64,000 nucleotides of DNA from Candidatus Aegiribacteria sp. MLS_C (GTDB lineage: Bacteria; Fermentibacterota; Fermentibacteria; Fermentibacterales; JCC-6). A program made the translations under genes and the position numbers. Positions 12,830 through 30,301 of this stretch are shown piece after piece; positions within the stretch are counted from its first letter, which is position 1; the number at the start of each line of letters is the position of its first letter. The stretch covers positions 207,538 to 271,537 of the forward strand of contig LQBI01000001.1 in the NCBI GenBank assembly GCA_002030045.1, written 5' to 3'. Below the pieces are notes generated by a model that ran no database searches, was not told the DNA's origin, and worked only from the letters and a program-made list of their open reading frames with translations.

Positions 12830-12843
12830 CGGTACCTCCCTCT

Positions 12844-13842
12844 TTATCTCCGGTAACGGGTGAGCGAGAGCGGGAAGACCTCGAACAGAGATTCGACGGA
12901 GCGGTGAAGGAACGAGGCTTCCATCGAGACCGACAGGTTGCCGTCGGGCTCCGAGAAGTAGGCGGAGACCTCGTGGCCTTCCGTGCTCTCGAGGTCCCAC
13001 AGTGGAATGACGTCGGTGGGGCAGTGGGCGATCCCCCTCATGGAATCAACGTGGAATAGGGACACGTCCAGCGGCAGCATGTCAGGGAGAAGCAGGTTCC
13101 ACGCGTGGAATACCAGAGTGTCCCCGGGTTCCCTCAGCAGACCTCCGGTGACCGACAGGGCAACGCCTCCGGCCGCCGCCGAATCGCGGAGCGCCATGGC
13201 GAGACCCAGGCAGGGTCCGGGACCCTCCGGTTCCTCCGGCACCTGTATGGACCTCATCATTCCCGCGATACCGTCCAGTCCGTCTTCGCCCATGCGTGAT
13301 TCCAGATCGGAGCCGATCGGTCTGTACGTGAAAGGGACCTGAACTATTCTGAGAACCAGGGGGAGCACGGCGGTGGATCCGGGTTCCAGTCGGTACACCG
13401 GCGCCTCCATTACGGACCCGTCAGCGCGGAAGGCGCCGGTGACGATCTCGAGGGACTGGTAGGGCGGGTGGGCCGTCGGCAGAGGTATCCTGACCGATAC
13501 CTCCTCTATACGCTCCCCGCCGGTATTCGAGATCCGGGTGACTATCACCAGGACGTTATCAAGTAGTTCCGAACCCTTTATTCTCCGGTGGAGCCACTCC
13601 CTGATCGATTCGTCGTCCGATGACCCGTAGGCCACCCTGAATACGGATGCGGCCCTGGAAAAGTTGCCGGAGACCTCGAGAAGGCTTCCGAAGTCTATCA
13701 CGGTACGTCCTCCCTCCCTGGCCGCCAGCTCGGCGAAGAGAACCGCCTCCTCGGGTACCTCGGCGAGCGTGACGAGGTTCCAGCTGGAATCCGAGGGCGA
13801 GTAGCCGAAAGCCAGCAGCACGGAGAAGATGAGGGGTATCAA
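12844..13842 (-). CDS. Secreted transglutaminase-like superfamily protein
   Basis: 332 aa. A signal peptide (MIPLIFSVLLAFGYS) is followed by a TPR-like stretch and a beta-rich domain. At about 205-265 it has the transglutaminase-like order Cys-His-Asp: GPCLGLAMALRDSAAAGG, VFHAWNLLLP and PLDVSLFHVD, as in bacterial cysteine-protease-like transglutaminase folds. It may hydrolyse or cross-link peptide bonds in the periplasm. TTG 13842 overlaps the stop of the permease gene upstream (TTGA), and 14 nt separate it from the aspartyl-protease gene, so the three are probably co-expressed. Confidence 0.68.
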   Translation of the reverse strand: MIPLIFSVLLAFGYSPSDSSWNLVTLAEVPEEAVLFAELAAREGGRTVIDFGSLLEVSGNFSRAASVFRVAYGSSDDESIREWLHRRIKGSELLDNVLVIVTRISNTGGERIEEVSVRIPLPTAHPPYQSLEIVTGAFRADGSVMEAPVYRLEPGSTAVLPLVLRIVQVPFTYRPIGSDLESRMGEDGLDGIAGMMRSIQVPEEPEGPGPCLGLAMALRDSAAAGGVALSVTGGLLREPGDTLVFHAWNLLLPDMLPLDVSLFHVDSMRGIAHCPTDVIPLWDLESTEGHEVSAYFSEPDGNLSVSMEASFLHRSVESLFEVFPLSLTRYRR

Positions 13843-15062
13843 CTCTCGAGCCCTCTCACAGGGTCCAGTCCGGCGGCCTTCATGGCCGGAACGATCCCGG
13901 ACCCCAGGCTCAGCAGGAAAGCCAGTGAGGCCACCGTCAGCACCTGCATGGGGGATACGTGAACCGGGATGTTCTGGTGAAAGGAGTACACATCGGGAAG
14001 GGAGATCAGGCCGGTGCTCCCTATCACCCAGCAGCCGGCCAGGCCCAGCATGGTCCCCGCCAGTACACCCGCTATGCCCACTACGATCCCCTCCCAGAGG
14101 AATATCCTGAAGACGAGCCTGCTTCCGGCACCCATGGCCTTCAGTACTGCGATGTCCTTGCGCCTCTCGATCACCGATCTCGAGATGGTCCCTATGATGT
14201 TGAAGGTGGCTACGAGGGTTATCAGGAGCAGGGCCAGGAAGGCCCCCATCCTCTCCAGCTCCATCGAAGCGGTCAGGTCGGGGTTCAGCTCCCTCCAGCT
14301 CCTGACGGAGGTGCCGGCGGGAAGCAGCGGCGTGAGTGTTTCCGAGGCGCTTTCCGGGGATACGCCTTCTGCCGGGTATATCTTGATTCCGCTGTAGCCG
14401 CCCTCAGGAAGGTACATGCTGCGGGCCAGGTCGATATGCACCCATGCCAGGGTCTCGTCGTTGACGGGGAGTCCCGTTTCCAGAGCGCCGGTGAGCACTG
14501 CCCTCCCGATGGCGTGGCCCCTTCCGGAGAAGAAGGCCCTGGGAGGGAATATGAATACCGTGTCGTCCACCGAGTGGAAGAACTCCTCCGCCAGGTAGAG
14601 TCCCATGATGATGGCGTCTCCCCCCCCGGGAGCAGTGAGACGGAGTTCCCCGTAGGAAAGGGCGTCGGACATCCTGTCTCCCGCGAACTCCCTTTCCGGG
14701 TCGACGCCGCGGACCCTGCAGCCGGTATCCACTCCCCTGGCAGGCATCCTCAGTATCGCCTCGCCCTGGACGAAGGGAGAGGCCAGATCTATCTCCTCCA
14801 GTGTTTCCATGGTGACAAGCAGGTCTTCGGACATCATGAAGGATGAGCCGCTGTCCGGCAGGATGGTCAGGGGCGCGTCAACGTTGATCACGGAATCCTC
14901 GATGAACCCTTCCAGACCGGACATCACGCTCATGACGACTATGAGGGCTCCCACTCCCAGGGCCACGCCGGCTATGCTGACCACCGTGGAGAAGGCCAGG
15001 TGTTTCCTCCTTGGATGCCTTCGGAGGTATCTCCATGCCAGGTGAAGGGAAAGCCAGTTCAT
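13839..15062 (-). CDS. LolC/LolE-type lipoprotein-releasing ABC permease
   Basis: 407 aa. The order is that of MacB-PCD/FtsX permeases: a first membrane helix (TVVSIAGVALGVGALIVVMSVMSGLEGF, about 27-54), a periplasmic domain of about 210 residues, and three C-terminal helices starting near 265 with ERRKDIAVLKAMGAGSRLVFRIFLWEG. The opening LAWRYLRRHPRRK is the LolC/E N-terminal motif. It would extract lipoproteins from the inner membrane together with a LolD ATPase, which is not in this window. ATG 15062 is preferred to GTG 15068. First gene of the minus operon with a transglutaminase-like protein and a lipoprotein protease. Confidence 0.88.
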   Translation of the reverse strand: MNWLSLHLAWRYLRRHPRRKHLAFSTVVSIAGVALGVGALIVVMSVMSGLEGFIEDSVINVDAPLTILPDSGSSFMMSEDLLVTMETLEEIDLASPFVQGEAILRMPARGVDTGCRVRGVDPEREFAGDRMSDALSYGELRLTAPGGGDAIIMGLYLAEEFFHSVDDTVFIFPPRAFFSGRGHAIGRAVLTGALETGLPVNDETLAWVHIDLARSMYLPEGGYSGIKIYPAEGVSPESASETLTPLLPAGTSVRSWRELNPDLTASMELERMGAFLALLLITLVATFNIIGTISRSVIERRKDIAVLKAMGAGSRLVFRIFLWEGIVVGIAGVLAGTMLGLAGCWVIGSTGLISLPDVYSFHQNIPVHVSPMQVLTVASLAFLLSLGSGIVPAMKAAGLDPVRGLES

Positions 15063-15268
15063 AAGCACCCCCGGAAGAGGTTGTTGACAGACAGGGGCTG
15101 CGCTGTCCCGGACCGCTCGAAGCCCAGCCTGTTGGTGACCATCGACCGGTAATATAGTTAACCCTGTCCTTCGGAACGGAGCGCCTCCATGGAATCAGCG
15201 GCGCAGATGTCCGGAAGACTCGGCCTGGTGCGCCGAAAACAGGAACATATATACTCAGCAGGAGTTAT

Positions 15269-15343
15269 ATGACTGTAAAAAGCTGGTCTTGCCGGACCCG
15301 CTGCATTGCTGGAAGCCCCCACCGGACAAGGAGACGGATTTGA
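15269..15343 (+). CDS. Possible 24-residue leader peptide ahead of the C25 peptidase gene
   Basis: ATG 15269 follows GGAG (15261-15264) and opens a 24-codon basic frame (MTVKSWSCRTRCIAG...) that stops at TGA 15341-15343. The stop overlaps the TTG start of the large peptidase gene (TTGA at 15340-15343). This arrangement fits translational coupling. The peptide is not recognised and could be chance. Confidence 0.35.
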   Translation: MTVKSWSCRTRCIAGSPHRTRRRI

Positions 15344-18300
15344 TCGCCGCCCTAATGAGCTTGATTATGCTGGCCGCAGCCACGGACCGTGAAGCTGTGG
15401 ATTTCACAGAATCCGGACCCGACGGCTGCACGATGACCATCCGGGTGGAACCTCCATCCTACAGGGTCTACCGGGACAGGTGGTATCCCGTTGTGCACGG
15501 CATGACCGGAACCTGCCTGCCGGGACTTCCCGTGCTTCCCGCGGTCACCGTCTACGTGCCGGTCCCTCCGGACTGCGATCCGGAAATGGAATACGACCAC
15601 TCCGGCAGGATCCAGCTGGATATACCGGGTCCTCTGCTGGTCACTCCCGTGGCGGTCGGGAGCGGCCTCGAGACGGAATGGGAGATCCCTGAAGCCGAGA
15701 GGGGGGCGGCCCTTCCGGAGATGGTGGAGGTGAGGACTTTCCAACTGGCGGGTACCAGGGTGGCGGCGGTCACCGTTCACCCGTTCTCCGGAATGGACGA
15801 TGGCTGGATCCCTTCCAGCATCCAGGTCCGGCTGCACTGGCCCAGGACGGGTGGAAGCAGGAGCCCTGACACGCCCCTCCTCAGGGTTCTCTGCGCCGGT
15901 GGTCTCGAGTACTGGCCCGCAGGGAGGACCTCCGACGGTCCCGGACCCTTCTGGGGCAGACCCTGGGCAAGGATGGCCATCTCCGCCTCCGGCATCTACA
16001 TCGTTACCGGCTCGCAGCTGGAGGACGCAGGCGTGGGAATAGCCGGTGCGCCTTCCAGGAGCCTCAGGGTCCTGACCGGTCCCGGCCTTATGTTCGACCT
16101 GGACGATCCTGCGGCGGAGCATCAGCCCGTTGAGGTCCCAGTGGAGGTAATGGACGGCGGGGACGGCATATTCGACGAGTCGGACTCCCTGAAGTTCTTC
16201 GGTCGCGGTCTGTCCAGGCTCGATCTGGAGGGTGAGGGTGCAACGCCGCGCAGGACGATGCACCGCTATGCGGACCACAACGTCTACTGGCTCACGTGGG
16301 GGGCCGAGGACGGTCTCAGGGTGGATACGGTGGAAGCGCTTCCCGACGGTTCCCCCCAGTGGGGGGACAGTCTAAGGTACGATATATGGCAGGAACAGGA
16401 CTACCTCTGGGTCGGAGGCCAGGATTCCCTTACGGGATGGGTATGGACGCAGCTCTTCGAGGGTATCCCCAGCTATTTCTACTTCAGCACCCCCTCCGCC
16501 GACGGAAGCGGCAGTGTGCGTTTCCTGATGGTGCCGGAGACAGGGAACAACGGACCCCACGAGATGACTGCGGAACTCAACGGTGACGTGATAGGAGATA
16601 CGGTCTGGACCACTGACGATCCCAGGGAATTCCTCTTCGATGGACTCGACCTCGATCCCTCAATGAACCTGCTCAAGGTAACTGTGGACGAATCCCCGGG
16701 GAAGTTGTACCTGGACTACATGATGGCCGATTATTCCCGAAGGCTCGACTATGCCGCCAGCCGCATGCTGAGTTTCGCCGGCGCGGTGCCCGGGAGGTAC
16801 ACCCTCTCACTCGGTGGAGCGCTCTCGTCCTCGTCGCTCCTTGACCTTTCCGATCCCGGGAATCCGGTGAGGATCAGGGGGCAGCTCTCCGGCGCCCTTC
16901 TCGAGACCAGCATGGACATCGACCGGAGCAGGTGTCTCTGGCTCGAAGGGGAGGAAGGCTACCGTGTGCCGGATTCCATTACCTCAGCTGAACCCGGCAG
17001 GATAATGGGCAGCGTCGTCGAGGGGGAGGTCGCCATTGTGGTGGCCGACCAGCTCATGGAGGCGGCCCAGCCCCTGGAGACGATCTACGCTGGCAGGGGG
17101 CGCACAGCGGCGGTGGTGGCCGCAGGTGAGGTCTACGACGAGTTCGGGCAGGGCATCAGGGACCCGGGCGCCATAAGGTCCTTCTTCCGCTATACGCAGG
17201 ACTCCTGGAGCCAGCCTGCGGAAGCCCTGCTCCTGGTTGGGGACGGCTCCTACGATCCAATGATGCATGTCACCTCAAATCCCACGCTCATACCGATATG
17301 CCTCGATCTGGTCTCTTCTGCCGGGACCAATATCGACGACCGGTACGTCATCGCCCACGAGAACGGGGAGCTGCCCGAGGTCCCGGTATCCCGCATTCCC
17401 GTCTCCTCGGCCGCCGAACTCTCCGGATACCTGGCCAAGCTGATGTCCTACGACGGCCGCCAGGCCTCCGGGCAGTGGGAGAACAGGGTGATACTGGCTG
17501 CGGACGATGAATGGGGCAACTACAGTGTCAACGAGTACGATCACACTGAGAGCTGCGAACTCCTTGCGGACACCATACTGCCGTCAAGGCTTGACAGGGA
17601 GAAGTTCTACCTCATCGAGTTCCCGTGGCCTCCGGGGACCACTCCCTCAGGGGTCCACCCGGAGAAACCGGAGGCCCGCCAGGCGTTCATTCAGGAACTG
17701 TCGGAAGGCTGCGCCGGAATGATCTTCTTCGGCCACGGTTCCTACGGACAGCTGGCCCACGAGAAGATACTGGTCTCCAGCGACGTGCAGGTCATCGACA
17801 ACGGGGGACGCCTGCCGGTGATGATATTCGCCAGCTGCGACCTGGCCCATTTCGACATGTCATCGGCAAAGTGCCTTGCCGAGGACTTCCTCCTCATTCC
17901 CGGATCGGGCTCGGTGGTGTCCATAGGTTCCACGCGGGAGTCCTACTCCGGCCAGAACGAGGACCTGTTCGCCGGCTACTATTATTACCAGTACGGAGAT
18001 GACGACCTCACCGTCGGAGAGTCCATGTGGGCGGCGAAGGTGGTCTACGCGCCGATCCAGTACTACAACAGCAGGCTCTACGTGACCCTTGGGGACGGAG
18101 GGATCCTCCCTGTCGGCTCATCCTCCGAGGGATGCAGTTTCGACGTCGAGGGTGATTCCCTCTACCGCGGCCGTATGAACACCGTCTACGGAGAGTTTAC
18201 CTCGGGCTCCTCCGGCTTCGTCCGGGTGACCGAGAGCGGCATGCAGTCCAGCTACAGCGGCCTGGGTTCAGGTTCGGTGGACTATCTACATTACGGGTCC

Positions 18301-19122
18301 GATGTATACCAGGGACTCGTAAGTAGTGACGGGACCGGCTTCACCGTACCTTTCTTCATGCCCGTCCAGGCCGACACCGGATCGTACTCCAGGGGTTCGG
18401 CGGTGGGGCTGTGTTCCGGCGGCAGCCAGGTGGCCCACAGGGAATGGATACGCGTTCTGGACGACGGTGTCCATGATCAGGATTCCCTTCCTCCGGAGAT
18501 AGAGATGTGGCTGGAGGGCCACAGAGGGGAGGACCATCCCTCGGTGAGCGGCCAGACGACCATCTGGGGTATAATCTCCGATCCCAGCGGTGTATGTGCC
18601 ATGGGGGCCGGAGCCGGAAGGTCGGTACTGCTGAGCCTTGACTCCCAGGGCTTCGACGTGAGCAGGTATTTCCAGTACAGACCAGACAGCTATACAACCG
18701 GAGAACTGGAGTACGCACTCCCCGAGATGACGGAGGGGGAACACCGGCTCATACTGGCCGCCTGGGACGGAATGGGCAACGCAGGGAGGGACACGCTCGA
18801 CTTCAGCGTGGTCCAGGCCCCGGACGAACTCCTCTCTTCCGTATTCGCATATCCGAACCCCGGTGCCGGACAGAGATGTTTCAGTTTCGAGGCCGCCGTC
18901 TCCGGTACGGCCGGAATAAAGGTATACACGGTCTCGGGCAGATGCATCTGGAATGAGACTGTCATCTGCCGTGAAGGATACAACCAGGTCGTCTGGAACG
19001 GCCTCGACATGGACGGCGACCCTCCGGCCTCGGGTCCCTATGTCTACAGGGTGGATCTCTCCACCCTGAACGGATCCTCCGCCTCATTCACCGGGATCCT
19101 CGCCGTGATGAACGAGGAATGA
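15340..19122 (+). CDS. Secreted gingipain-family (C25) cysteine peptidase, copy 1
   Basis: 1260 aa. TTG 15340 has AAGGAG six bases ahead and gives a signal peptide (MIAALMSLIMLAAA). A propeptide-like beta-rich region (about 30-560) precedes the peptidase C25 domain (about 570-930). The catalytic His is in FFGHGSYGQLAHE (His799) and the catalytic Cys in MIFASCDLAHFD (Cys833). The end carries YPNPGAGQRCFSFEA and a FlgD/Ig-like domain (VVWNGLDMDGDPPASGPYVY), the kind used for type-IX-like secretion or surface sorting. It is head of a six-gene unit whose second gene overlaps by ATGA. It is a close paralogue of the gene at 19880. Confidence 0.9.
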   Translation: MIAALMSLIMLAAATDREAVDFTESGPDGCTMTIRVEPPSYRVYRDRWYPVVHGMTGTCLPGLPVLPAVTVYVPVPPDCDPEMEYDHSGRIQLDIPGPLLVTPVAVGSGLETEWEIPEAERGAALPEMVEVRTFQLAGTRVAAVTVHPFSGMDDGWIPSSIQVRLHWPRTGGSRSPDTPLLRVLCAGGLEYWPAGRTSDGPGPFWGRPWARMAISASGIYIVTGSQLEDAGVGIAGAPSRSLRVLTGPGLMFDLDDPAAEHQPVEVPVEVMDGGDGIFDESDSLKFFGRGLSRLDLEGEGATPRRTMHRYADHNVYWLTWGAEDGLRVDTVEALPDGSPQWGDSLRYDIWQEQDYLWVGGQDSLTGWVWTQLFEGIPSYFYFSTPSADGSGSVRFLMVPETGNNGPHEMTAELNGDVIGDTVWTTDDPREFLFDGLDLDPSMNLLKVTVDESPGKLYLDYMMADYSRRLDYAASRMLSFAGAVPGRYTLSLGGALSSSSLLDLSDPGNPVRIRGQLSGALLETSMDIDRSRCLWLEGEEGYRVPDSITSAEPGRIMGSVVEGEVAIVVADQLMEAAQPLETIYAGRGRTAAVVAAGEVYDEFGQGIRDPGAIRSFFRYTQDSWSQPAEALLLVGDGSYDPMMHVTSNPTLIPICLDLVSSAGTNIDDRYVIAHENGELPEVPVSRIPVSSAAELSGYLAKLMSYDGRQASGQWENRVILAADDEWGNYSVNEYDHTESCELLADTILPSRLDREKFYLIEFPWPPGTTPSGVHPEKPEARQAFIQELSEGCAGMIFFGHGSYGQLAHEKILVSSDVQVIDNGGRLPVMIFASCDLAHFDMSSAKCLAEDFLLIPGSGSVVSIGSTRESYSGQNEDLFAGYYYYQYGDDDLTVGESMWAAKVVYAPIQYYNSRLYVTLGDGGILPVGSSSEGCSFDVEGDSLYRGRMNTVYGEFTSGSSGFVRVTESGMQSSYSGLGSGSVDYLHYGSDVYQGLVSSDGTGFTVPFFMPVQADTGSYSRGSAVGLCSGGSQVAHREWIRVLDDGVHDQDSLPPEIEMWLEGHRGEDHPSVSGQTTIWGIISDPSGVCAMGAGAGRSVLLSLDSQGFDVSRYFQYRPDSYTTGELEYALPEMTEGEHRLILAAWDGMGNAGRDTLDFSVVQAPDELLSSVFAYPNPGAGQRCFSFEAAVSGTAGIKVYTVSGRCIWNETVICREGYNQVVWNGLDMDGDPPASGPYVYRVDLSTLNGSSASFTGILAVMNEE

Positions 19123-19886
19123 ACTCCGGAAAGGCCGCCCCGGAAGGTCTGGAGCTGGCGGTCGAGCTTCTTCGTTCCAGTTACCTCCCGGTGGTCTCCA
19201 CCGGCGCCGGGATGTCCAGGGAGAGCGGTGTGCGTACCTTCAGGGGCGAAGAAGGCTACTGGAGGGAGCACAGGGCCGAGGACCTGGCTTCACTTGAGGG
19301 AATAAGGAAGGACCCGGTCCTGGTCTGGGAGTGGTACCGGGAAAGGCTCGGGGCCTGTGAGGAGTTGATCCCGCATAAGGGTTACGAAGCCCTCTACCGT
19401 CTACAGGAGCACAGTGGAAGGCTCCCCGTGGTGACGCAGAACGTGGACGGGCTCCATCAGAAGGCCGGGATCAGGGACGTCATAGAACTCCACGGCAGCC
19501 TGAGGACGGCCTCCTGCCTGGCAGGATGCGGCGCTCCGCCGGTCCGCATGGAACAGGGTCTCTTCGAGAACATGCCCCCGAGGTGCGTCTGCGGCAGCAT
19601 TCTCAGACCGGATGTCGTTCTCTTCGGGGAGGACCTTCCCGAACAGGCCCTGAAGCGGGCATTAAGGCTTGCCGGGAGATGTGACCTGATGATAGTTGTG
19701 GGTACGTCCATGGTGGTGTATCCCGCCGCTGCGCTTCCCATGATAGCCCTGAGGAGCGGGGCACGGGTGATAGAGATAAATACAGTGGAAACACCTCTTT
19801 CCTCGCTGGAGGGGACCCTGTTCCTGAGAGGGACCGCGGGAAGTGTTCTTCCCGAGCTGGCAAAGGCGGTTATTCGATCATGCTGA
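19119..19886 (+). CDS. Sirtuin NAD-dependent protein deacylase
   Basis: 255 aa, full length for a small class III/U sirtuin. Motifs: NAD site STGAGMSRESGVRTFRG (about 27-43), TQNVDGLHQKAG (107-118), catalytic His in ELHGSLRTASC (about 124-134), and a four-Cys zinc site (SCLAGCG and RCVCG). It should remove acyl groups from lysines using NAD+ in the cytosol. The Arg/Tyr pair that marks desuccinylases (Y..R) is not evident after the GAG motif, so the acyl preference is open. It is translationally linked on both sides (ATGA with the first peptidase, 7-nt overlap with the second), an unusual setting between two exported proteases. Confidence 0.93.
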   Translation: MNSGKAAPEGLELAVELLRSSYLPVVSTGAGMSRESGVRTFRGEEGYWREHRAEDLASLEGIRKDPVLVWEWYRERLGACEELIPHKGYEALYRLQEHSGRLPVVTQNVDGLHQKAGIRDVIELHGSLRTASCLAGCGAPPVRMEQGLFENMPPRCVCGSILRPDVVLFGEDLPEQALKRALRLAGRCDLMIVVGTSMVVYPAAALPMIALRSGARVIEINTVETPLSSLEGTLFLRGTAGSVLPELAKAVIRSC

Positions 19887-22800
19887 TCTCGCTGTTGTTC
19901 CTGGTGTCCGTTTCCCAGTCAGTCGAGCCCCTGCCTGCGGATCCCTCGTCGGGATTCGCCGCGGTTGTCCAGTTCCCGGAACCGGGGATCGCGGAACTGG
20001 AGAGCGGTGTATACCCGGTGTTCAGCGGTATCCCCACAAGGTTCCAGCCGGGGGAGCCTCCCCGTCCCGTCTTGACCCTCTTCGTTCCGGTCCCTCCGGG
20101 CGCCAGACCGGAGCTCAGTTTCTCCGCCGGGGGCTACAGGCCGACCGGTGCGGCATCCTCCACGGTCCTCACACCGGCTCTGCAGGGAGGCGGCCTATCC
20201 GTCCGGGAAGTGCCTGTGGAAAGGGTGGCACCGCCATCCAGTCACGCCGTGCTGGAGGGCGTCATACCCGTCGCCGGGACCTCCGTTGCCATGATCGACG
20301 TCTATCCGGTGGTGGACCCGTCCGGTGCCGAGTACGCTTCAAGCGTGTCCCTGGAACTGAGCTGGGAAGCGGAAAGCGGAGGCATTCCCGTTGAACGAAG
20401 CACGCTGCTGCGTCTCCTGGCCCCTTCCGGAACCCTCTACTGGAGGGGGTATCCGCGGCGATCCTGCAGAAGTGAGTTCTGGGGCATGCCCTGGGCCAGG
20501 ATATCGATCCCTGAAAGCGGCGGCTACTCAGTAACCGGAAGTCGGCTTGAGCAGAGCGGCTGCCAGGTGACAGGCACCCCGTGCGCCACGCTTCGAATGC
20601 TCTCCGGGCCCGGGGTGATGTTCACCAGTGCTCCCGAGGACAGCCACGCGCTGCAGGAGGTTGCGATAGCGGTGATCGATGCCGACGGGGACGGGGTATT
20701 CGATGAAGAGGACCAGGTGAGGTTCTTCGGAAGGGGTCTCTCCCGCTGGGAGCAGGAGGGCCAGGAACTGGTCAGGCTGGAACACAGGTATGCAACCCAC
20801 AACGTCTACTGGCTGACATGGGGAGGGGAGAACGGGAGGCGGATTGGTACGGTCCAGGGCGCTCCCGATACATCTCCGGGCTGGGGCGGCACCATTCGCA
20901 CGGACCTGTGGCTGAGGGAGGAGAACGAGTGGCTTCCCCGCTATGAGACCGCCACGGGCTGGGTATGGCAGACCATAGTCGAGGGGGAGAGCATCTCCGT
21001 GCCCTTCCAGGTCGGTGACCAGGGCAGCTGCGACGTATCCGTGAAAGTCATCATGGACGGTTCCCAGCAGCACACTGTCAGCCTCAGGATCAACGGGACC
21101 GAGGTCCTGAACGAATCCTGGTACGGTTCCGGTACAAGGCTCCTTCAGGCGGAGGACGTACAGCTCTCCGGCTCATGCGATCTCCAGGTGGTGTTCGAGG
21201 ATGACCTGGGGGACAGCGAACTCTCCCTGGTGTCGATCAGGGTGGAGTACTCGGAACGGCCCGGCGATCTGACGGGCCGATTCCTGTTCCCGTCCAGGGA
21301 GAAGACCGGCAGGTTCAACTTCGCCGTTTCCGGAGCCTCCTCCACATGCCTCGCCTACGATGTCACTCATCACAACGACCCCCTGGCGGTTGAGGGGGGG
21401 GAATACTCCGGAGGTTCCTACAGCTTCTCCTTCCAGGTGGATCCCGGTTCGGGGCTCATCATCATGGACAGCCAGGACTGGATGACGCCGGATTCCGTCG
21501 TGTCAGCAAATCCCGGCAGGCTTGCGGGGACCGTGACACAGGGGGACAGGCTCCTTGTGGTTCATCCGTCCATGTACGACGGTACCTGGGGCATGCTCCA
21601 GGTCCTCGAGCAGCAGGGTCATATGCCGGTGGTGGCCACGACCACGGAGATCTACGACGAGTTCGGACAGGGGGTGGCGGATCCCGGAGCCATAAGAGCG
21701 GCAGTGAGGTGGGCGATGGACACCTGGACACCGGGATTGTCGGGACTGATCCTCGCAGGAGACGGACACTACGATTTCCTCGGCCACGCCACCTCGCAGC
21801 CGGTAATGGTTCCTCCCTGGGTCCGCCTGGGCACCGGTCAGACCGATTGTGTCGACGATCTCTTCGTCATGGTCCACCCGGAAGCGGTACTTCCGGAGAT
21901 TCCTGTATCAAGGATCCCGGCTGACAATCTGTCTCAGCTGGGTACCTGCACCGCCAAGCTCATCTCGTATTACCAGGAGAATAATTCCGGCGACTGGACA
22001 GGCAGGGCGCTCATCGTGGCAGACGATGAATGGGGCCAGTCCGGGTCCTGGAACGAGACCGAGCATACAGTGAACTGCGAACGGATAGCCGAGGAAGTGC
22101 TCCCCAGATGGTTATCCAGGGAAAAGTTCTACATGATCGAATACCCGTGGCCTCCGGGACCGTGGACACCGGAAGGACCACATCCCGAGAAACCTGAAGC
22201 GAGAGACAGCTTTCTGGAGACCTTCGACAGGGGGTTCCTCTTCATGTTCTACGAGGGACACGGTGCCGGCAACCAGATAGCTCACGAGGTCCTCATGACC
22301 GACGAGGACGTCAGCGGGATGAGCAACGGCCACCGTCTGCCGGTTTCGTTCTGGGCCACCTGCGACGTGGGGCATTTCGACGATCCGGGCTCCGACGCCA
22401 TCGGAGAGAGGCTGGTGCTCCATCCGGCCGGCGGCTGCATATCCAGCGTGGCGGCCACCCGCGGGACCTACGGCGCCTCCAACTACCAGTACTTCAGGAG
22501 CGTCATAGATTCCCTCTGCAGCGATCCTCAGCTTTCGGCGGGGGAGGCGGTCTGGCAGTCAAAACTTGCGCTGTCAGCTTCCTACAGCAACAACAGGTTC
22601 TACGTGATGTTCGGTTATCCCGACCTGCCGCTGGCATTTCCAGGGACCGGGGGAACCGTTTCCGTCGAGGGGGACACCCTGCGCAGCGGCGAGCTGAACA
22701 CGATCGTGGGGCGGGATTTCCAGCAGGAAGGTCTCGCTTTCGTCCAGGTCCTGGAGTCGTCATGGAACACCGTCTACACCTGCCTGGGGGGAGCCCAGAT

Positions 22801-23653
22801 CCCCTACCTCAGGTACGGCGGAACCGCCTACAGCGGTACTCAGACCGTCGAGGACGGGGAATTCTCCATTCAGTGCTTCATACCCCTTCAGTCGAATACG
22901 GGTGACATGTCCAGGGCGGCCGGACTGGCCATCTCCAGTGAGCTTTCCGATGCGGGTGCGCTGGACCCGGCGGTTCTGGTGGAGGGGAACCCCTCCGGCG
23001 GCGACCTGCTTGGTCCGGAGGTTCAGATGTGGATAGACGGGTACGAGGGTGTGTCCTTTCCGGAACTCACGGGAGACGTGACCCTCGAGGCGGCCATAAG
23101 CGATTCAAGCGGCATCTGCCTCCTGGGCGGCGCCGGAAGGGAACTCAGCCTGTTCATCGACGGTCTCTGCGTTGACGTGAGCCGCCACTTCTCCTACGAC
23201 AGGGGCAGCTCCGTTTCTGGAAGACTGGAGTACGGCATCGAATCCCTGGCCGAGGGTGAGCACACGCTGATACTCTGGAGTTTCGACGGACTGGGCAACA
23301 GCTCCCGGGACACTCTGGAACTGAGGATACTCCAGGAGAGCGACCTCTCGCTGACCGAGACCCTGGTCTACCCCAACCCCGGAAGCGGTTCCAGGTGTTT
23401 CAGTTTCAGGGTTTCCGAGGACGCTCAGGTGACCGTATCCATCTACACCGTGGCGGGTACCAGGATCGAGGAACTGACCGCGATCTGTTCCCAGGGCTAC
23501 AACCAGCTCTTCTGGAACGGCCTCGACCACGACGGTGATCCCGTTGCGGGGGGACCCTACATTTACAAGATTAGGGCGGATGCCCTCGGTTCCTCCGTAT
23601 TCAGCAGAACCACGGAGGAATACGGAGTGCTGGCGGTCATTTCGGAGGAATAA
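19880..23653 (+). CDS. Secreted gingipain-family (C25) cysteine peptidase, copy 2
   Basis: 1257 aa, the same architecture as the gene at 15340: signal peptide MLISLLFLVSVSQS, a long beta-rich propeptide region with YWRGYPRRSCRSEFWGMPWARI (paralogue: YWPAGRTSDGPGPFWGRPWARM), and a C25 domain with His794 in FYEGHGAGNQIAHE and Cys828 in SFWATCDVGHFD. The His-Cys spacing of 34 residues is identical in both copies. The C-terminus is VYPNPGSGSRCFSFRV plus a FlgD/Ig-like sorting domain. The two copies may act as a heteromeric or complementary pair like RgpA/Kgp in Porphyromonas, but substrate specificity cannot be read from sequence. Confidence 0.9.
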   Translation: MLISLLFLVSVSQSVEPLPADPSSGFAAVVQFPEPGIAELESGVYPVFSGIPTRFQPGEPPRPVLTLFVPVPPGARPELSFSAGGYRPTGAASSTVLTPALQGGGLSVREVPVERVAPPSSHAVLEGVIPVAGTSVAMIDVYPVVDPSGAEYASSVSLELSWEAESGGIPVERSTLLRLLAPSGTLYWRGYPRRSCRSEFWGMPWARISIPESGGYSVTGSRLEQSGCQVTGTPCATLRMLSGPGVMFTSAPEDSHALQEVAIAVIDADGDGVFDEEDQVRFFGRGLSRWEQEGQELVRLEHRYATHNVYWLTWGGENGRRIGTVQGAPDTSPGWGGTIRTDLWLREENEWLPRYETATGWVWQTIVEGESISVPFQVGDQGSCDVSVKVIMDGSQQHTVSLRINGTEVLNESWYGSGTRLLQAEDVQLSGSCDLQVVFEDDLGDSELSLVSIRVEYSERPGDLTGRFLFPSREKTGRFNFAVSGASSTCLAYDVTHHNDPLAVEGGEYSGGSYSFSFQVDPGSGLIIMDSQDWMTPDSVVSANPGRLAGTVTQGDRLLVVHPSMYDGTWGMLQVLEQQGHMPVVATTTEIYDEFGQGVADPGAIRAAVRWAMDTWTPGLSGLILAGDGHYDFLGHATSQPVMVPPWVRLGTGQTDCVDDLFVMVHPEAVLPEIPVSRIPADNLSQLGTCTAKLISYYQENNSGDWTGRALIVADDEWGQSGSWNETEHTVNCERIAEEVLPRWLSREKFYMIEYPWPPGPWTPEGPHPEKPEARDSFLETFDRGFLFMFYEGHGAGNQIAHEVLMTDEDVSGMSNGHRLPVSFWATCDVGHFDDPGSDAIGERLVLHPAGGCISSVAATRGTYGASNYQYFRSVIDSLCSDPQLSAGEAVWQSKLALSASYSNNRFYVMFGYPDLPLAFPGTGGTVSVEGDTLRSGELNTIVGRDFQQEGLAFVQVLESSWNTVYTCLGGAQIPYLRYGGTAYSGTQTVEDGEFSIQCFIPLQSNTGDMSRAAGLAISSELSDAGALDPAVLVEGNPSGGDLLGPEVQMWIDGYEGVSFPELTGDVTLEAAISDSSGICLLGGAGRELSLFIDGLCVDVSRHFSYDRGSSVSGRLEYGIESLAEGEHTLILWSFDGLGNSSRDTLELRILQESDLSLTETLVYPNPGSGSRCFSFRVSEDAQVTVSIYTVAGTRIEELTAICSQGYNQLFWNGLDHDGDPVAGGPYIYKIRADALGSSVFSRTTEEYGVLAVISEE

Positions 23654-23674
23654 CCTCTAGGAGGTAGGTACCAC

Positions 23675-24835
23675 TTGTCAGGACCACCCGGCGGCAAGAT
23701 AGACTGGTTGTGGAAGCAGGTGGAGAGCGCCAGGGCGGATGACAACCGGGAGGCGGTCCGGGAGTGTCTGGAGAGACTCCTGGCCGATCCCTCCGTTCGG
23801 GACACCTCCGACGAGGACCTGGCCCTGATCAACCTCAGCCAGCTGGACCTGGAGGAGGGACGGAGCAGGGAAGCTGCGCTCAGGCTCTCGGATTTCAGGT
23901 GGCACGGCGTACCGGGACCGGCGGGGCTGCTCCTCCTGGCGGACGTGTATCTGAAGCTTGAATGGTTCGGGCAGGCAAGGGACGAACTCGAGGAATACCT
24001 GGAGCTGATACCGGAGGACCTGGACGCCAGGAGGAAGCTGGGTCTCGTGCAGCTGATGCTGAACGAGGACGATGCAGCACAGCGCATCCTGCTCGCCACC
24101 GCCCGCAGGGAGAAGAACAGGGTGCCGGAAACCCTGACCTATCTGGCCATGCTGGAGGCCAAGGCCGGCCGTCTCGAGGAGAGCCTGCATCTGCTCCTGC
24201 AGGCCAGGGAACTGGCTCCCTTGGACGAGAAGATCGAACACACACTGCTTCGCATCGAGTCCCTGAGGGTAAGTCTGAAGAGGAGGGCCCTCCATCAGGA
24301 GGACCTGCCCCTGGAGGACCTGGTCCCGGGAATGACCGGGGGCATGCTGGAACTGCACGGCTACTCCCGGGAGAAGGCAAGGCAGGCCATGGAGGCGTGG
24401 AACAGGTTCTGCAGCGTCCAGAGACCCGCCGGCCGGAAACCCGCTATCTGGGCTGCAGCCCTTGAATACTCGGTAACGAGGTTCGGACCCCATTTCACTC
24501 AGAAACAGCTGGCCGACGAGTACGGAGTGTCAACCACCCAGCTGGGCGAGCATTACCACACGATCGCCCAGGCAGTGGACCTCGATTCCATAGTGAAGGA
24601 AGACCTCCTGGGTGAGACTGAAAGAGCGGGCCACGGCCTTCGGGACCTGGTTCGGAGGGAGGAGATGGCGGAGGTCATCGCCTCTGCCACAGGCAGGCTC
24701 GAGGAGTTCCGGGGTCCCGGCGAGATGTGCGCCTGGGTGTTCGGGAGGATAGATCCCCTGAACGAGGCCGAACGCAGGGAGATAGAGGACTTCGTGGGCT
24801 ATCTCTGGAAGCGCAAGTCCAATCCGGCGAAATAG
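23675..24835 (+). CDS. TPR protein with C-terminal helix-turn-helix-like segment
   Basis: 386 aa, no signal peptide, so cytosolic. TPR-like helical repeats fill about 10-205 (LLLADVYLKLEWFGQARDEL, ARRKLGLVQLMLNEDDAAQR, ETLTYLAMLEAKAGRLEESL). The C-terminal part (about 235-290) reads KPAIWAAALEYSVTRFGP followed by HFTQKQLADEYGVSTTQLGE, a helix-turn-helix of the kind found in TFIIB-cyclin-like or SEC-C/TPR proteins. TTG 23675 has AGGAGGT at 23659-23665. It may be a regulator or adaptor for the surrounding exported proteins; that is inference from position. Confidence 0.72.
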   Translation: MSGPPGGKIDWLWKQVESARADDNREAVRECLERLLADPSVRDTSDEDLALINLSQLDLEEGRSREAALRLSDFRWHGVPGPAGLLLLADVYLKLEWFGQARDELEEYLELIPEDLDARRKLGLVQLMLNEDDAAQRILLATARREKNRVPETLTYLAMLEAKAGRLEESLHLLLQARELAPLDEKIEHTLLRIESLRVSLKRRALHQEDLPLEDLVPGMTGGMLELHGYSREKARQAMEAWNRFCSVQRPAGRKPAIWAAALEYSVTRFGPHFTQKQLADEYGVSTTQLGEHYHTIAQAVDLDSIVKEDLLGETERAGHGLRDLVRREEMAEVIASATGRLEEFRGPGEMCAWVFGRIDPLNEAERREIEDFVGYLWKRKSNPAK

Positions 24836-27800
24836 ATGAGGATACCCTTGACGATCATTCCGCTCTTCCTGGTACCGGCGGTGCTGGTGTCCCAGGTCCC
24901 TTCCGTGGAGGTATACTGCGATCCGGGCCAGTTCCAGCAGATGGTGGAACTCTACGAGGAGGAGATCGAGATAGACTGCACGGTGATCGTCGGCGACACC
25001 GTGTACGCAGGGTCCCGTATTCGGCTGAGAGGGGACACCTCGAGAGGGTATCCGAAGAAATCGTTCCGCATAGACCTCGCCGACAGCAGCTCCTGGGATG
25101 GAAGGGTGGAGTGGGACTTCAACTCCGAGTACACGGATTCCACCTACATACATCCATGGCTCTTTTCCTGGATCCTCACGAACCTCGACTATCCCTGCTT
25201 CCGTACCGACCATTACAGGTTCTACGTAAACGACGAATACAAAGGGCTCTACCTCAGGAGCGAACCTGTCGACGAGCAGTTCCTCTCCAGCAGGGGAATG
25301 GATCCGGACGGGAACCTCTACAAGGCTTCCGTCGACGGTTCCTGCCTCAGCAGGTACGATGACGTGCCTCTTGTATGGGAGAAGAAGGCCAACGAGAGCG
25401 AGGGATGGAACGACCTCTACCAGCTCATAGAGTACATGGACCAGGTGGACCCTGCGGCGTTCCACGAGACGGCCTGGGAGGTCTTCGACCTGAACGACCT
25501 CATCACGATACTGGCGGTCAACACCCTGACCATGAACTTCAGCACCTACTACCACAACTACTTCGTATACAGGGACATTCGAGGCACCGGGCTCTGGACG
25601 GTCCTCCCCTGGGACGTGGACAAGCTGTGGGGGGACTGGACCTGGAGGACCTACACCGCCGGAGTGAACAACTTCTGGTACGACAACCCGCTTATCGAGA
25701 AGGTCATCCTGGACCCTGTGCTCTTCGAACTCTACTACGACCGGATGGACTCCATCGCCGCACAGCTCCTGACCCCGGAGTTGGTGGGTCCGGTGATAGA
25801 CTCTCTGGAGGCGGTCCTGGCAGGTGCCGTTGCCGATGACGACTACGACGCCATAACAGCTGACGATTTCCACACCGCCATCGCCAGGCTGCGGGACGAG
25901 AGGATACCGGGCAGGATCGTTGGACTGAACTACATGTACGGAAACGATGTGAGGTCTTTCAGTGCCTTCTGTGGCGACACGGTCTCGCTGGGCGACAAGT
26001 TCGTGAACTGGGAGGCCGCCGTGGATCCCCAGGGGGATTCCGTCGACTACAGGCTGTATCTCTACACCGAAGAGGGCTGGCCGCTGGACCCCATCGAGAC
26101 CCTGGCCCTGGCCGATACATTCCACACCTTCACATCGCTTCCCCCCGGCGGCTACGTGTGGAGGGTGGAGGCAGGCACCGGGGGCGACAGGTACACGGAG
26201 GCCTACGACCGCTACAATCCCTTCACGGTCATCGATTCATGGACGGTGCTCTCCGGCACCCTCTCGGGCAGCACGGTCCTGACCCCGGAGGATTCCCCCT
26301 ACCTGGCGGTCTCCGACCTGCTCATACCCGAAGGCTCATCCCTCACCGTCCAGGGCGGGGTGGACATCCGCCTTGAGGAGGACGTCAGCATCGACTGCAG
26401 CGGAGAGATCATCTGCATGGGGAATTCGGCGGACTCGGTGAGGTTCCTGCCCGACGACGGGTCAAGGCCCTGGGGCGGAATAAGGCTGCAGGGAGCGGAA
26501 GCCTGGATGACCTGCGTCTCTTTCTTCGGTTCCGTGGGGTTCGGCGGCTCGGGCCAGGACAACGCCCTTATCCTCGGACAGCACTCGGACCTGGTCCTGA
26601 AGGGATGCTCCTTCACCGGGAACACCCGGTGTATCAACCTGACAGGAGGCAGCGTTGTTATGGACAGCTGCCGCCTCACCGGATGGAACAGCGGGGAACT
26701 TTTCTTCATGGAGGATGGAGACTCGGCCCTCATCGAGAACAGCAGCTTCGGCAACATGGTGGACCCACCTAGTCCGTGGCATGACGGGGTGGAGTTCCAG
26801 GACTGCCGCAGCGGCAGCTATATCGTCAGGAACTGCGAGGTGTTCAACATCCAGGGAGACGCCATCGACAGCAACAGCAGCAACATGACAGTCGAGCACT
26901 GCAGTGTCCGGGACGCGGCGGACAAGGGCTTCTCCATAGGCATAAACGCACCCGGAAGCCACATATCCACCGTCGAGCTGATGAACAACACGGTTTCCGG
27001 ATGCTACACGGGCATCGCGGTGAAGGACGATTCATACGCGGATATCTTCAGCTGCACCGTGACACAGTGCGACATCGGCGTCAGGGCCTACAACAAGACC
27101 GCAGGCTCCGGAGGCGGTTACGCCACAGTGCTCAACGGGATCGTCCACGCCTGCAGCGAGACCTTCAGCTTCGAGGACGGGTCCGTGGTTGAAGTCGCCT
27201 ACAGCCTCACCGGATCAGAGTATTCCTGGCCGGGAGAGGGCAACATCGCCGGAGACCCGCTCTTCGCACCCTGGGTAGGAACGGACTACCATCTGTCCTA
27301 CGAATCCCCGTGCATAGACTCGGGTGATCCCTCGATGGAGGACCCCGACGGCACCAGGTCGGACATGGGGGCGGTCTTCTTCCCGCAGTTCCTCGACGAC
27401 CTCTACATCAACGAGTTCCAGTCGGTGAACGACACCACGATAGCAGACTCCTACGGCGACTACGACGACTGGTTCGAACTCTACAACGGCTCAGACTGGG
27501 ACTGCGACCTCAGCTGGGTCTTCGTCTCCGACGACCCTTCCCGGCTGGAAACGTACCAGTTCCCTCCCGGCACGGTCATTCCCGCCGGAGGCTACCTTAT
27601 CGTATGGGCCGACGGACATCCATGGCAGGACGGTCTTCACCTGCCCTTCGCTCTGTCCTCGGAAGGCGACAGCATCTACGTTTCACGCCAGCCGGCGGAA
27701 CCCTCTTCCGGAGATGCGGAAGGCAGCCGGACAAGGGCCCTCAAGCTGGTCGACTCGGTCAGCTTCGGTCCCGTGCCGCCGGACATGTCCTACGGGAGGT

Positions 27801-28165
27801 ACAGCGACGGCGGTCCCGAGTGGGGACTGCTGGAGTTCTGCACACCCGGCTGGTCCAACTCGCTTCCCTGGAGCGATACCGGTTTCCTGCAGGTTTCGGC
27901 CGCCTTCCCCAATCCTCTCATGGGCGGTTCCGTTGCGCTGGACATCACCGTGGACGCCGGTCTTACCAGGGTTAGCGTGTACGACATGGCGGGGAGGCTA
28001 ATAGCGGTCCCCTACGACGGCTACCTGGAATCCGGAGAGTACAGGTTCCACTGGGACGCGGCGTTCGAGAGCGGTGCCCGTGTCCCCGTGGGCGTGTACC
28101 TGATACATGTGATGCACTCGGCCGGGCTTTCCGAGAGCAGGAAAGTGGTGGTCCTGGGAAGATGA
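24836..28165 (+). CDS. Secreted CotH-kinase-family protein with beta-helix, lamin-tail and FlgD-like sorting domains
   Basis: 1109 aa. Signal peptide (about 1-19), CotH domain (about 25-370) with RGDTSRGYPKKSFRIDL, HNYFVYRDIRGTGLWTVLPW and DVDKLWG (the conserved Asp block), a short beta domain (370-460), a right-handed parallel beta-helix (about 465-810), a lamin-tail domain (about 855-965, INEFQSVNDTT...DDWFELYNGS) and a C-terminal FlgD-like domain with AAFPNPLMGGSVALDI. CotH proteins are atypical protein kinases; outside Bacillus spores their targets are mostly unknown. ATG directly follows the TAG of the preceding gene without a clear ribosome site, so coupling is likely. Confidence 0.87.
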   Translation: MRIPLTIIPLFLVPAVLVSQVPSVEVYCDPGQFQQMVELYEEEIEIDCTVIVGDTVYAGSRIRLRGDTSRGYPKKSFRIDLADSSSWDGRVEWDFNSEYTDSTYIHPWLFSWILTNLDYPCFRTDHYRFYVNDEYKGLYLRSEPVDEQFLSSRGMDPDGNLYKASVDGSCLSRYDDVPLVWEKKANESEGWNDLYQLIEYMDQVDPAAFHETAWEVFDLNDLITILAVNTLTMNFSTYYHNYFVYRDIRGTGLWTVLPWDVDKLWGDWTWRTYTAGVNNFWYDNPLIEKVILDPVLFELYYDRMDSIAAQLLTPELVGPVIDSLEAVLAGAVADDDYDAITADDFHTAIARLRDERIPGRIVGLNYMYGNDVRSFSAFCGDTVSLGDKFVNWEAAVDPQGDSVDYRLYLYTEEGWPLDPIETLALADTFHTFTSLPPGGYVWRVEAGTGGDRYTEAYDRYNPFTVIDSWTVLSGTLSGSTVLTPEDSPYLAVSDLLIPEGSSLTVQGGVDIRLEEDVSIDCSGEIICMGNSADSVRFLPDDGSRPWGGIRLQGAEAWMTCVSFFGSVGFGGSGQDNALILGQHSDLVLKGCSFTGNTRCINLTGGSVVMDSCRLTGWNSGELFFMEDGDSALIENSSFGNMVDPPSPWHDGVEFQDCRSGSYIVRNCEVFNIQGDAIDSNSSNMTVEHCSVRDAADKGFSIGINAPGSHISTVELMNNTVSGCYTGIAVKDDSYADIFSCTVTQCDIGVRAYNKTAGSGGGYATVLNGIVHACSETFSFEDGSVVEVAYSLTGSEYSWPGEGNIAGDPLFAPWVGTDYHLSYESPCIDSGDPSMEDPDGTRSDMGAVFFPQFLDDLYINEFQSVNDTTIADSYGDYDDWFELYNGSDWDCDLSWVFVSDDPSRLETYQFPPGTVIPAGGYLIVWADGHPWQDGLHLPFALSSEGDSIYVSRQPAEPSSGDAEGSRTRALKLVDSVSFGPVPPDMSYGRYSDGGPEWGLLEFCTPGWSNSLPWSDTGFLQVSAAFPNPLMGGSVALDITVDAGLTRVSVYDMAGRLIAVPYDGYLESGEYRFHWDAAFESGARVPVGVYLIHVMHSAGLSESRKVVVLGR

Positions 28166-28184
28166 ACGGAAACTGGAGGTTACA

Positions 28185-28784
28185 GTGTTCTTCATAACTT
28201 CGATACTGTCGCTGGTGCTGGTGGCACCCGGCGACCTGGTGATAAGCGAGATAATGTACAACCCTGACGGCCCCACTCTGGGCGACGACGACTGCTTCGA
28301 ATGGGTGGAACTCTGCAACGCGGGCCCGTCGACGCTGGAACTCGAGGGCATGATGCTGAGCGACGGCAACAACCAGCTCTTCATCGGACCATTCAACCTG
28401 GAAACCGGTTCCAGGGTGGTCCTTGCCGCGGATTCGGAGGACTTCGCGCTGGCCTACGGTGACGACGTCCCCGTGGCGGAATGGGAGGGGGACTGGACGA
28501 AGCTGTCAAACGACGGTGACCAGGTCATCCTCTATTCATCGAGCGGCGAGGTCCTCGATGCCGTGACCTATTCAGACACCTGGGGCGCCGACCCGGAGAG
28601 CGGTTCACGAAGCGACGCCGACGGGAGGGGTTCCTCGCTGGAGAAGGTAGCCCTGACGGGTCCCAATGACGAGACCAACTGGAGACCCTCGGAGGACTAC
28701 GGGTGTCCCAGAAACGATCCCGAAGACGGGCGACCCGTATGCTGGGGCACTCCGGGAGTCAGGAACAGCGTGGAGGCCGACTGA
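28185..28784 (+). CDS. Secreted lamin-tail-domain protein
   Basis: 199 aa. Signal peptide (MFFITSILSLVLVAPG) then one lamin-tail domain: GDLVISEIMYNPDGP, ECFEWVELCNAGPSTLELEG-like strand pairs, and DGDQVILYSSSGEVLDAVTYSD. The protein stops after TPGVRNSVEAD and lacks the FlgD-like sorting end that its neighbours have, so it may be periplasmic or depend on a partner. GTG 28185 has GGAGG at 28175-28179. It is the last gene of the unit starting at 15340, and faces the DUF4956 gene across a hairpin (28791-28816). Confidence 0.8.
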   Translation: MFFITSILSLVLVAPGDLVISEIMYNPDGPTLGDDDCFEWVELCNAGPSTLELEGMMLSDGNNQLFIGPFNLETGSRVVLAADSEDFALAYGDDVPVAEWEGDWTKLSNDGDQVILYSSSGEVLDAVTYSDTWGADPESGSRSDADGRGSSLEKVALTGPNDETNWRPSEDYGCPRNDPEDGRPVCWGTPGVRNSVEAD

Positions 28785-28790
28785 CAGTAT

Positions 28791-28816
28791 CCTCAGACCG
28801 GAACTCCCATCTGAGG
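28791..28816. terminator. Hairpin between convergent genes
   Basis: CCTCAGA (28791-28797) and TCTGAGG (28810-28816) form a 7-bp perfect stem around a 12-nt loop, exactly in the gap between the convergent lamin-tail and DUF4956 genes. There is no T-run, so its role as a terminator is tentative. Confidence 0.4.
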
Positions 28817-28829
28817 GCAGCTGTACCCG

Positions 28830-29522
28830 TCAGAAGTCTATATCGTTGCTGGCGGTCACCATGTTCACGTTGTCAATGCCCTGTACGGCGTTGAGACCGG
28901 TGACGATGTCGCTGGAGCTGAACCCGGGTTTCAGCGAGAGGTCGTAGGTAAGGGTCAGGAAGACACCGTCGCTGGAAGGTTCGATGTGTATTATGGTGCT
29001 CTTGCTGGCCCTCTCGTTGATGAAGCTTATGTATTCCTGCTCGTCGCCGGTCTCCCGGTTGAACCTGAACCTGAGCATGAACTCGCTCCTGTGCATGGAA
29101 CCGAAGTTGGTCCTGAAGAGCAGCAGGGCCACGGTCCCTATGAACAGCGTGGAAAAGAATGTCAGCACGTAGTTGCCGGTTCCGGAGGCTATTCCCTCGG
29201 TCAGCGCGAAGAAGATGAAAGCCGTATCCCTCGTATCCTTCACCACCGTCCTGAAGCGGACGATTGTCAGAGCGCCCACGAGCGCGAAGGCCCGGGCCAG
29301 GTTGCTTCCGATGACCATCATGACCGCGCTCACCGTGATGCACATCAGCACCAGCGTGACCACGAAGGACTGGGAGTAGGAGAGACCCTTGTGGGTCCTC
29401 CGGTATATCACGGCTATAAGGAGGCCCGCAAGGAGGGCCAGCACCATGTTGACGAGTACGGACATGGGGCTGTAGCCCAGGTCCTCGGAGGCAGTGGTGA
29501 ACCATTCCGTCAGCTGAGACAA
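28830..29522 (-). CDS. DUF4956 membrane protein
   Basis: 230 aa. Three or four hydrophobic helices in the first half (SVLVNMVLALLAGLLIAVIY, FVVTLVLMCITVSAVMMVIG, NYVLTFFSTLFIGTVALLLF) and the family block VRFRTVVKDTRDTAFIFFAL. The soluble end is a small alpha/beta domain. DUF4956 genes are repeatedly found next to VTC-type polyphosphate polymerases and CotH genes, as here, and may act as their membrane partner. TTG 29522 has AAAGGAG upstream and overlaps the VTC stop by 13 nt. The longer reading frame upstream is the antisense shadow of the VTC gene and is not real. Confidence 0.87.
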   Translation of the reverse strand: MSQLTEWFTTASEDLGYSPMSVLVNMVLALLAGLLIAVIYRRTHKGLSYSQSFVVTLVLMCITVSAVMMVIGSNLARAFALVGALTIVRFRTVVKDTRDTAFIFFALTEGIASGTGNYVLTFFSTLFIGTVALLLFRTNFGSMHRSEFMLRFRFNRETGDEQEYISFINERASKSTIIHIEPSSDGVFLTLTYDLSLKPGFSSSDIVTGLNAVQGIDNVNMVTASNDIDF

Positions 29523-30301
29523 GCCGGTCTCCTTTCGAACAGCCTGTCCAGGCTGGATGGGAGTGAATCCATGTACACCGCGCCGGTGGCGTATGCGAAC
29601 TTCGAGAAGGAGACCAGGTCGAGCTGGAACTCCTGTATGAGTCTCAGGAACCAGGCGGGCATCCTGTACCTGAACTTGATCTCCAGGACCTGGAACCCGT
29701 CGGATATCCCGTAGCACTCTGTGTGCGGATGTCCGGTGGGGAAGGATCTGTAGGCCATGGTACCCCTGTCCAGCGTGACCCTGAAGTCCGGATTGGCCCT
29801 GTTCTCGAAGGCAGTCCTGCGGTAGTCCACAACCACGCTTGGTGATATCCGCTTCCTGAATACGTCGTACACGAACCTCCTGCCGGTGTTGCACAGGTCC
29901 TGCCTCTGCATGAGAAGACCTGCCAGGTCAGTAGTCCCCCTGCCCAGTGCCTCCTCGGTATCAGAGGGATCCAGAAGCATCCTGTGCTTGTAGACAAGGT
30001 TGCCGTTTCTGCCCTTCAGTTCGAGGAAAAGAGGCTGGACGTAGCTGCTCGAAGCGCTGTAGCTGCGAAGTCGGAACTTGTACCTCTTCCTGAGCCCGGC
30101 CAGCTTCTCGTGGTAGAGTTCGAAGGAGTCCGTGTCGAAGTAGTGGCTCCGCACGAAGTAATCGCCTTCGGCACCTGAATTGACATCCCTCTGGAGTCTC
30201 AGGTCGAGTTCCCTGATAACGCCTGGCAGTGTATCGGGATCCAGGAGGTACTTGAACTCGTACCTGTGGAAATGCAGCCTGGGCAGTCCGCTTTCGGGCA
30301 T
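29510..30301 (-). CDS. VTC-domain polyphosphate polymerase
   Basis: 263 aa, a single VTC/CYTH-like triphosphate tunnel domain. Tunnel motifs are visible in order: HRYEFKYLLD (13-22, ExK type), RYKFRLRSY (about 73-81), PLFLELKGRNGNLVYKHR (about 91-108), VVVDYRRTAFE (about 157-167) and LEIKFRYRMP (about 206-215). Homologues polymerise ATP gamma-phosphate into polyphosphate. The start ATG shares one base with the porin stop (TGATG at 30303-30299), and DUF4956 overlaps its end, so the three form a tight operon: porin, polymerase, membrane partner. Confidence 0.9.
   Translation of the reverse strand: MPESGLPRLHFHRYEFKYLLDPDTLPGVIRELDLRLQRDVNSGAEGDYFVRSHYFDTDSFELYHEKLAGLRKRYKFRLRSYSASSSYVQPLFLELKGRNGNLVYKHRMLLDPSDTEEALGRGTTDLAGLLMQRQDLCNTGRRFVYDVFRKRISPSVVVDYRRTAFENRANPDFRVTLDRGTMAYRSFPTGHPHTECYGISDGFQVLEIKFRYRMPAWFLRLIQEFQLDLVSFSKFAYATGAVYMDSLPSSLDRLFERRPACLS

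Follow-up and report, generated by a model that had tools for sequence, protein, structure and literature searches.

The window analysed here is a stretch of 64,000 nucleotides from a Candidatus Aegiribacteria genome, and six of its genes lie in one direction on the plus strand. C25a (15340..19122) encodes an exported C25 peptidase resembling the sortase PorU and is the first gene of a tandem; C25b (19880..23653), the second, encodes an exported protein of the same type. Between them lies Sir2 (19119..19886), the gene of a cytosolic NAD-dependent deacylase of class III type. The series continues with a gene for a protein with TPR and a single TFIIB/cyclin-box-like domain (23675..24835; TPR protein in the following), a gene for a CotH protein that also has a beta-helix, a lamin-tail domain (LTD) and a FlgD/T9SS-type C-terminal domain (CTD; 24836..28165), and a gene for a further lamin-tail domain protein (28185..28784). 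The domains were confirmed by Pfam, with E-values of 7.4e-68 and 2.5e-60 for C25 in C25a and C25b, 1.2e-44 for SIR2, 2e-48 for CotH (together with LTD) and 1.9e-16 for the LTD of the last protein; TPR_14 was above cut-off in the TPR protein. The CTD of the CotH protein scored 23.2 against a value of 23 for TIGR04183.

C25a and Sir2 are joined by an ATGA, that is a 4-nt overlap at 19119-19122, and Sir2 overlaps C25b by 7 nt (19880-19886). The TPR gene follows C25b after 21 nt and starts with TTG, with a GGAGGT upstream. No nucleotide separates it from the CotH gene, which is followed by the lamin-tail gene after 19 nt. A sequence-only reading had described the same six genes and the same ATGA, 7-nt and zero-gap junctions, and this description was found to be correct. 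For C25a a TTG at 15340 was preferred over the longest-ORF start at 15289, because the proteins of relatives start there, at the signal peptide. A scan for promoters and terminators gave no signal above chance. Upstream and divergent lies a gene for an FtsX/MacB-type (LolCE-like) permease (13839..15068, minus strand; Pfam FtsX 1e-19, MacB_PCD). This gene is a conserved upstream neighbour outside the proposed operon, and we do not count it as a part. Further upstream of the FtsX gene, a fusion of a retropepsin-like aspartyl protease with a PDZ domain is encoded at 11006-13000 on the minus strand and is conserved in several relatives.

The C25 pair and type IX secretion

The two C25 proteins had been read from the sequence as gingipain-like peptidases. 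The profile searches pointed to PorU instead, the sortase of the type IX secretion system (T9SS), an enzyme that removes the CTD of its cargo and links the cargo to lipopolysaccharide. With the NCBIfam model of PorU (NF033707), C25a scored 398 bits and C25b 415.6 bits, both below the cut-off of 420. The matches spanned positions 7-1090 (C25a) and 7-1078 (C25b) of the 1095 positions of the model and thus cover the full-length PorU layout, with the C25 His and Cys and the C-terminal Ig-like domain. The sole PDB sequence match of C25b was PorU of Porphyromonas gingivalis (6za2, 2e-24), which sets it apart from gingipains of the RgpB/Kgp type. A gingipain identity of the pair was rejected on these grounds. 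The catalytic His and Cys were kept in all aligned rows of C25a, C25b and the third PorU-like group (PorU3) that cover these sites. Because both proteins score below the curated cut-off, their sortase function is predicted from homology.

In a tree, C25a, C25b and the third PorU-like group were separate, and the clades of C25a and of C25b each spanned two families, f1 and f2, of the phylum. The tandem duplication is therefore old. One row from genome G002, apparently a chimera, was the exception and grouped with the third set. It concerns the C25 gene adjacent to the TPR gene in locus L042 (8120-11572), in which a catalytic region of PorU3 type is combined with a tail of C25b type, from either gene conversion or an assembly chimera. 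The third PorU-like protein scored 292 bits with NF033707 (cut-off 420), and in each of the loci read its gene immediately precedes porV and an M6-like gene. An example is locus L061 (7475-17542, contig 8 of genome G000), where porV and the M6-like gene, T9SS-dependent by type, follow in this order. The porV-adjoining locus is probably the canonical sortase locus.

The genome of the window also encodes other parts of type IX secretion. SprA (TIGR04189) was above cut-off in this genome (403 bits summed in frame) and in 40 of the 42 genomes compared. The PorV/PorQ family was matched with 234 bits at a cut-off of 90, several PorV-family proteins being present, and 45 matches to the type-A CTD were above cut-off. 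The models of GldM and PorP gave no match, but the controls were equally silent. Taken together, SprA, PorV and CTD cargo make a T9SS in this genome probable, and the sequence-only proposal that the locus concerns a protein-secretion or processing system is borne out to this extent. Thus C25a and C25b share with P. gingivalis PorU both the domain layout and a genome with SprA, PorV and CTD cargo. They differ from PorU in being two tandem copies beside a third, porV-linked homologue, in scoring just under the curated cut-off, and in belonging to an operon that includes a sirtuin gene and a gene for a TPR protein with a TFIIB-like domain. A T9SS-type sortase pair is conserved across Fermentibacterota, a phylum for which our literature search, which paired Fermentibacter with type IX secretion, retrieved no T9SS paper.

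Conservation of the cassette in Fermentibacterota

The locus was compared across 42 genomes of Fermentibacterota (Hyd24-12) from three families; the genus of the window is Candidatus Aegiribacteria. A sirtuin gene between C25a and C25b was found in 34/42 genomes. In 31 of these, both C25 neighbours were on one contig, and three slot sirtuins were at a contig end. In G002, G006, G024 and G030 the contig ends at the locus, so no call was made on the slot. The C25a, Sir2, C25b and TPR proteins of other genera were about 41-62% identical to those of the window; beyond the genus, identity was mostly 50-64% for the sirtuin and mostly 41-46% for C25b. A 4-nt stop/start overlap was present at 19/27 junctions of C25a with Sir2 and at 21/27 junctions of Sir2 with C25b. 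Being conserved and coupled in translation, the cassette is no chance insertion; the arrangement is real and old. The order C25a-Sir2-C25b-TPR hence recurs phylum-wide and is not confined to this contig, and the sirtuin does not stand alone in relatives, the two outcomes that would have spoken against the sequence-only reading.

Absence of the sirtuin is patchy. In G001 (Candidatus Fermentibacter daniensis), G005 and G027, C25a and C25b were intact and adjacent with no sirtuin gene between them, and the gaps of just 53, 46 and -8 nt held no sirtuin remnant. These three lineages keep both C25 genes and the TPR gene. Since an intact C25 pair exists without the sirtuin in three genomes, we regard the sirtuin as an accessory of the pair, and the sortases evidently have no need of it. 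In G003, close forms of C25a, C25b, TPR and sirtuin were not found, and SprA and the porV-linked homologue were present. The slot is shared by G004 of family f2 and by family f1, which favours one gain with later losses, although the sirtuin tree is too poorly resolved for proof. Frameshifts or stops, from decay or sequencing error, interrupt the sirtuin gene and the two C25 genes in the assembly of locus L040 of G026 (Candidatus Sabulitectum silens).

Much of the surrounding region is conserved as well. G039 and G028 share about 30 kb of flanking gene order with the window, from FtsX to beyond LpxL, and G001 shares a large part of it. The syntenic flanks consist of FtsX and a hypothetical gene upstream, and of ppdK, a GGDEF response regulator, DUF362 and an LpxL-type acyltransferase downstream. 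Because the whole region is syntenic, conserved order by itself is weak evidence for function. The sirtuin could accordingly have been inherited in its place by slow evolution of gene order in this region, with no functional link to the sortases, and that it is dispensable in three contiguous loci fits with this. However, simple synteny does not require that overlaps are kept at most junctions on both sides, and every genome having the close form of the sirtuin carries it in the slot between C25a and C25b. The kept overlaps are stronger evidence for function than gene order. We therefore consider inheritance by position unlikely.

The conserved unit ends with the TPR gene. In most of the loci that lack CotH and LTD genes, ppdK comes next after TPR; in the window the two are 14 kb apart, with ppdK at 38944. 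CotH and LTD genes occur together with DUF4956, VTC and, contig permitting, a porin-like gene in a subset of one genus only. Together with VTC and DUF4956, the CotH and lamin-tail genes form an insertion restricted to one lineage; they lie outside the conserved unit and were rejected as members of it. The sequence-only reading, which had taken the lamin-tail gene and the CotH gene, as a kinase-like protein, for parts of the system, does not hold in this respect, and of its gene order C25-Sir2-C25-TPR/HTH-CotH only the first four genes recur across the phylum. In the window, the stretch between TPR and ppdK contains CotH-LTD, DUF4956, VTC and a BBP2-like porin (24836-33968), and within it a second CotH gene with a T9SS tail lies on the opposite strand.

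The sirtuin and the TPR protein

Sir2 scored 261 bits with the sirtuin model NF001753 (cut-off 243). It has no signal peptide and is cytosolic. Its best PDB matches were archaeal Sir2 and SIRT5, and the catalytic His and the YxxR motif were conserved in the alignment. YxxR is an acyl-specificity motif marking class III sirtuins (SIRT5/CobB). Read from this motif, Sir2 is predicted to have the deacylase specificity of class III, a class characterised by desuccinylase/demalonylase activity. It resembles class III sirtuins such as CobB, SIRT5-like proteins and Sir2 of Archaeoglobus fulgidus in sequence family, catalytic His and YxxR, and it differs from all of these in that its gene lies between two sortase genes and overlaps them at its codons. 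Sir2 was the sole sirtuin match in its genome. Second sirtuins were rare among the 42 genomes, and the slot sirtuin was usually the only one of a genome. The two off-cassette sirtuins of G027 and G033 (loci L045 and L049) are without YxxR; in G027, where the cassette slot is empty, the off-cassette sirtuin was the only one found. The sirtuin is under purifying selection, with dN/dS values of 0.08-0.30 in close pairs, mostly within the range of its neighbours. A full-length homologue of a Pat-type acyltransferase was found in about 10 of the 42 genomes, its occurrence does not track that of the sirtuin, and no such gene lies at the cassette locus. A role of the sirtuin as partner of a Pat-type acyltransferase was therefore rejected.

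The N-terminal half of the TPR protein consists of TPR. Its C-terminal part (24299-24832) was modelled alone by AlphaFold with a pLDDT of 87, and Foldseek matched the model to archaeal TFB with a probability of 1.00. The top structural matches were all TFIIB, Brf2 or cyclin, with some 97 residues aligned at Z-scores of 11.9-13.4. For helical folds a Z of about 13 may lack specificity, and these scores were therefore taken together with the sequence-profile match. In the latter, archaeal TFB was the best match of the TPR protein in the PDB (E 1.8e-4). The Pfam TFIIB model matched the TPR protein of the window with 14.5 bits, below the gathering threshold of 23.6, and a weak match was seen in 7/13 members of the family. 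In the alignment, the HTH of the protein falls on that of the second repeat of TFB. On this basis the C-terminus is predicted to have a cyclin-box fold. The name TPR/HTH given to this gene on first reading is to be corrected: the protein has TPR and a TFIIB/cyclin-box-like domain, of which the TFB-like HTH is a part. The predicted fold and the weak TFB sequence match link the protein to archaeal and eukaryotic TFIIB and cyclin-box proteins; unlike these it is bacterial, has one cyclin box fused to TPR, and shows no zinc ribbon. A profile search of genome contigs found it in Fermentibacterota only. Its likely role is that of an adaptor in the cytosol or of a regulator that binds DNA, possibly a transcription regulator specific to this lineage. 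The cyclin-box fold is put to an unusual use in this bacterial protein, which deserves a study of its own.

Possible roles of a deacylase in a proposed sortase operon

We favour the reading that the locus is an auxiliary T9SS sortase operon of Fermentibacterota that also carries the general deacylase of the cell, although for us doubt and confidence are about evenly balanced here. As exported enzymes, C25a and C25b would have the most likely task of removing the C-terminal sorting domains from secreted cargo, of attaching cargo to the surface, or both, and the third PorU-like enzyme, encoded beside porV, would work alongside the pair. The sirtuin would stay in the cytosol, most likely as a general lysine deacylase (acetyl, succinyl, malonyl) of metabolic and regulatory proteins, and the overlapping stop and start codons would couple its production to that of the sortases. 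The TPR protein, encoded by the last core gene, would be cytosolic and most likely a regulator or adaptor. If the sirtuin is merely a general deacylase, it is odd that both sortase overlaps were kept over such divergence. The main competing readings are inheritance by position, weighed above, and a regulatory switch through the TPR protein.

A link of this kind is reported in a review for P. gingivalis, where Pat acetylates RprY, a regulator of the T9SS, and CobB removes the acetyl group (PMC8407419). By analogy, the sirtuin could act as an NAD-dependent switch by deacylating a cytosolic regulator of the T9SS, either the TPR protein or a different one; the metabolic state (NAD+, acyl-CoA) would then govern the expression of the sortases or the assembly of the surface. 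The sirtuin and the TPR protein, both cytosolic, share one conserved operon, and the TPR protein would be a lysine-rich partner (15 K, 3.9%) with a TFB-like HTH. Still, several lineages keep the TPR gene without the sirtuin, and the conserved lysines of the TPR protein are kept in these genomes, which makes such a switch rather unlikely in our view. Lysine deacylation would be linked with T9SS regulation in both organisms. As far as that review describes it, the P. gingivalis sirtuin has no connection with a sortase locus; the cassette locus for its part has no acyltransferase, and its candidate regulator, the TPR protein, is unrelated to RprY. More broadly, the sirtuin and a TPR regulator, co-translated with the sortases, could together set the amount of anchored protein by the energy state of the cell. 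We propose such a metabolic switch on surface assembly only tentatively, as a somewhat improbable case. Were the link functional, NAD and acyl-CoA metabolism would be connected to protein export. The cassette locus appeared in none of the papers on sirtuins with type IX secretion, judged by title and abstract, and a phylum-wide, translationally coupled link of a sirtuin with surface-protein processing was described in no paper found.

On the sequence-only reading, a deacylase and an adaptor govern how the paired proteases and a kinase-like protein are exported or matured. In a direct form of this model, the sirtuin would remove acyl groups from the precursors of the two proteases and of CotH. 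There is precedent for acylated proteases: in two reviews (PMC8407419, PMC8674579), acetylation of pro-RgpB at K247/K248 by VimA/PG1842 is reported to be needed for gingipain maturation, and gingipains are reported to be succinylated. Against this, VimA has been assigned to linking-sugar synthesis by other work (PMC7468200), and CotH is outside the conserved unit. In about 1260 residues, C25a has 10 lysines and C25b 7, compared with 3-4% in the cytosolic neighbours. Moreover, among the conserved lysines of C25a, C25b and the TPR protein, no acylation site was lost together with the sirtuin; those of the C25 proteins are unchanged where it is missing. Because they are poor in lysine and their conserved lysines persist without the sirtuin, C25a and C25b are poor candidate substrates, and direct control of their maturation is very unlikely. 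Better candidates than the proteases are the proteins of the cytosol, among them the TPR protein with its 15 lysines. Over the window as a whole, the exported proteins had a lysine content of 0.56-1.4%, and the cytosolic ones mostly 2-4%.
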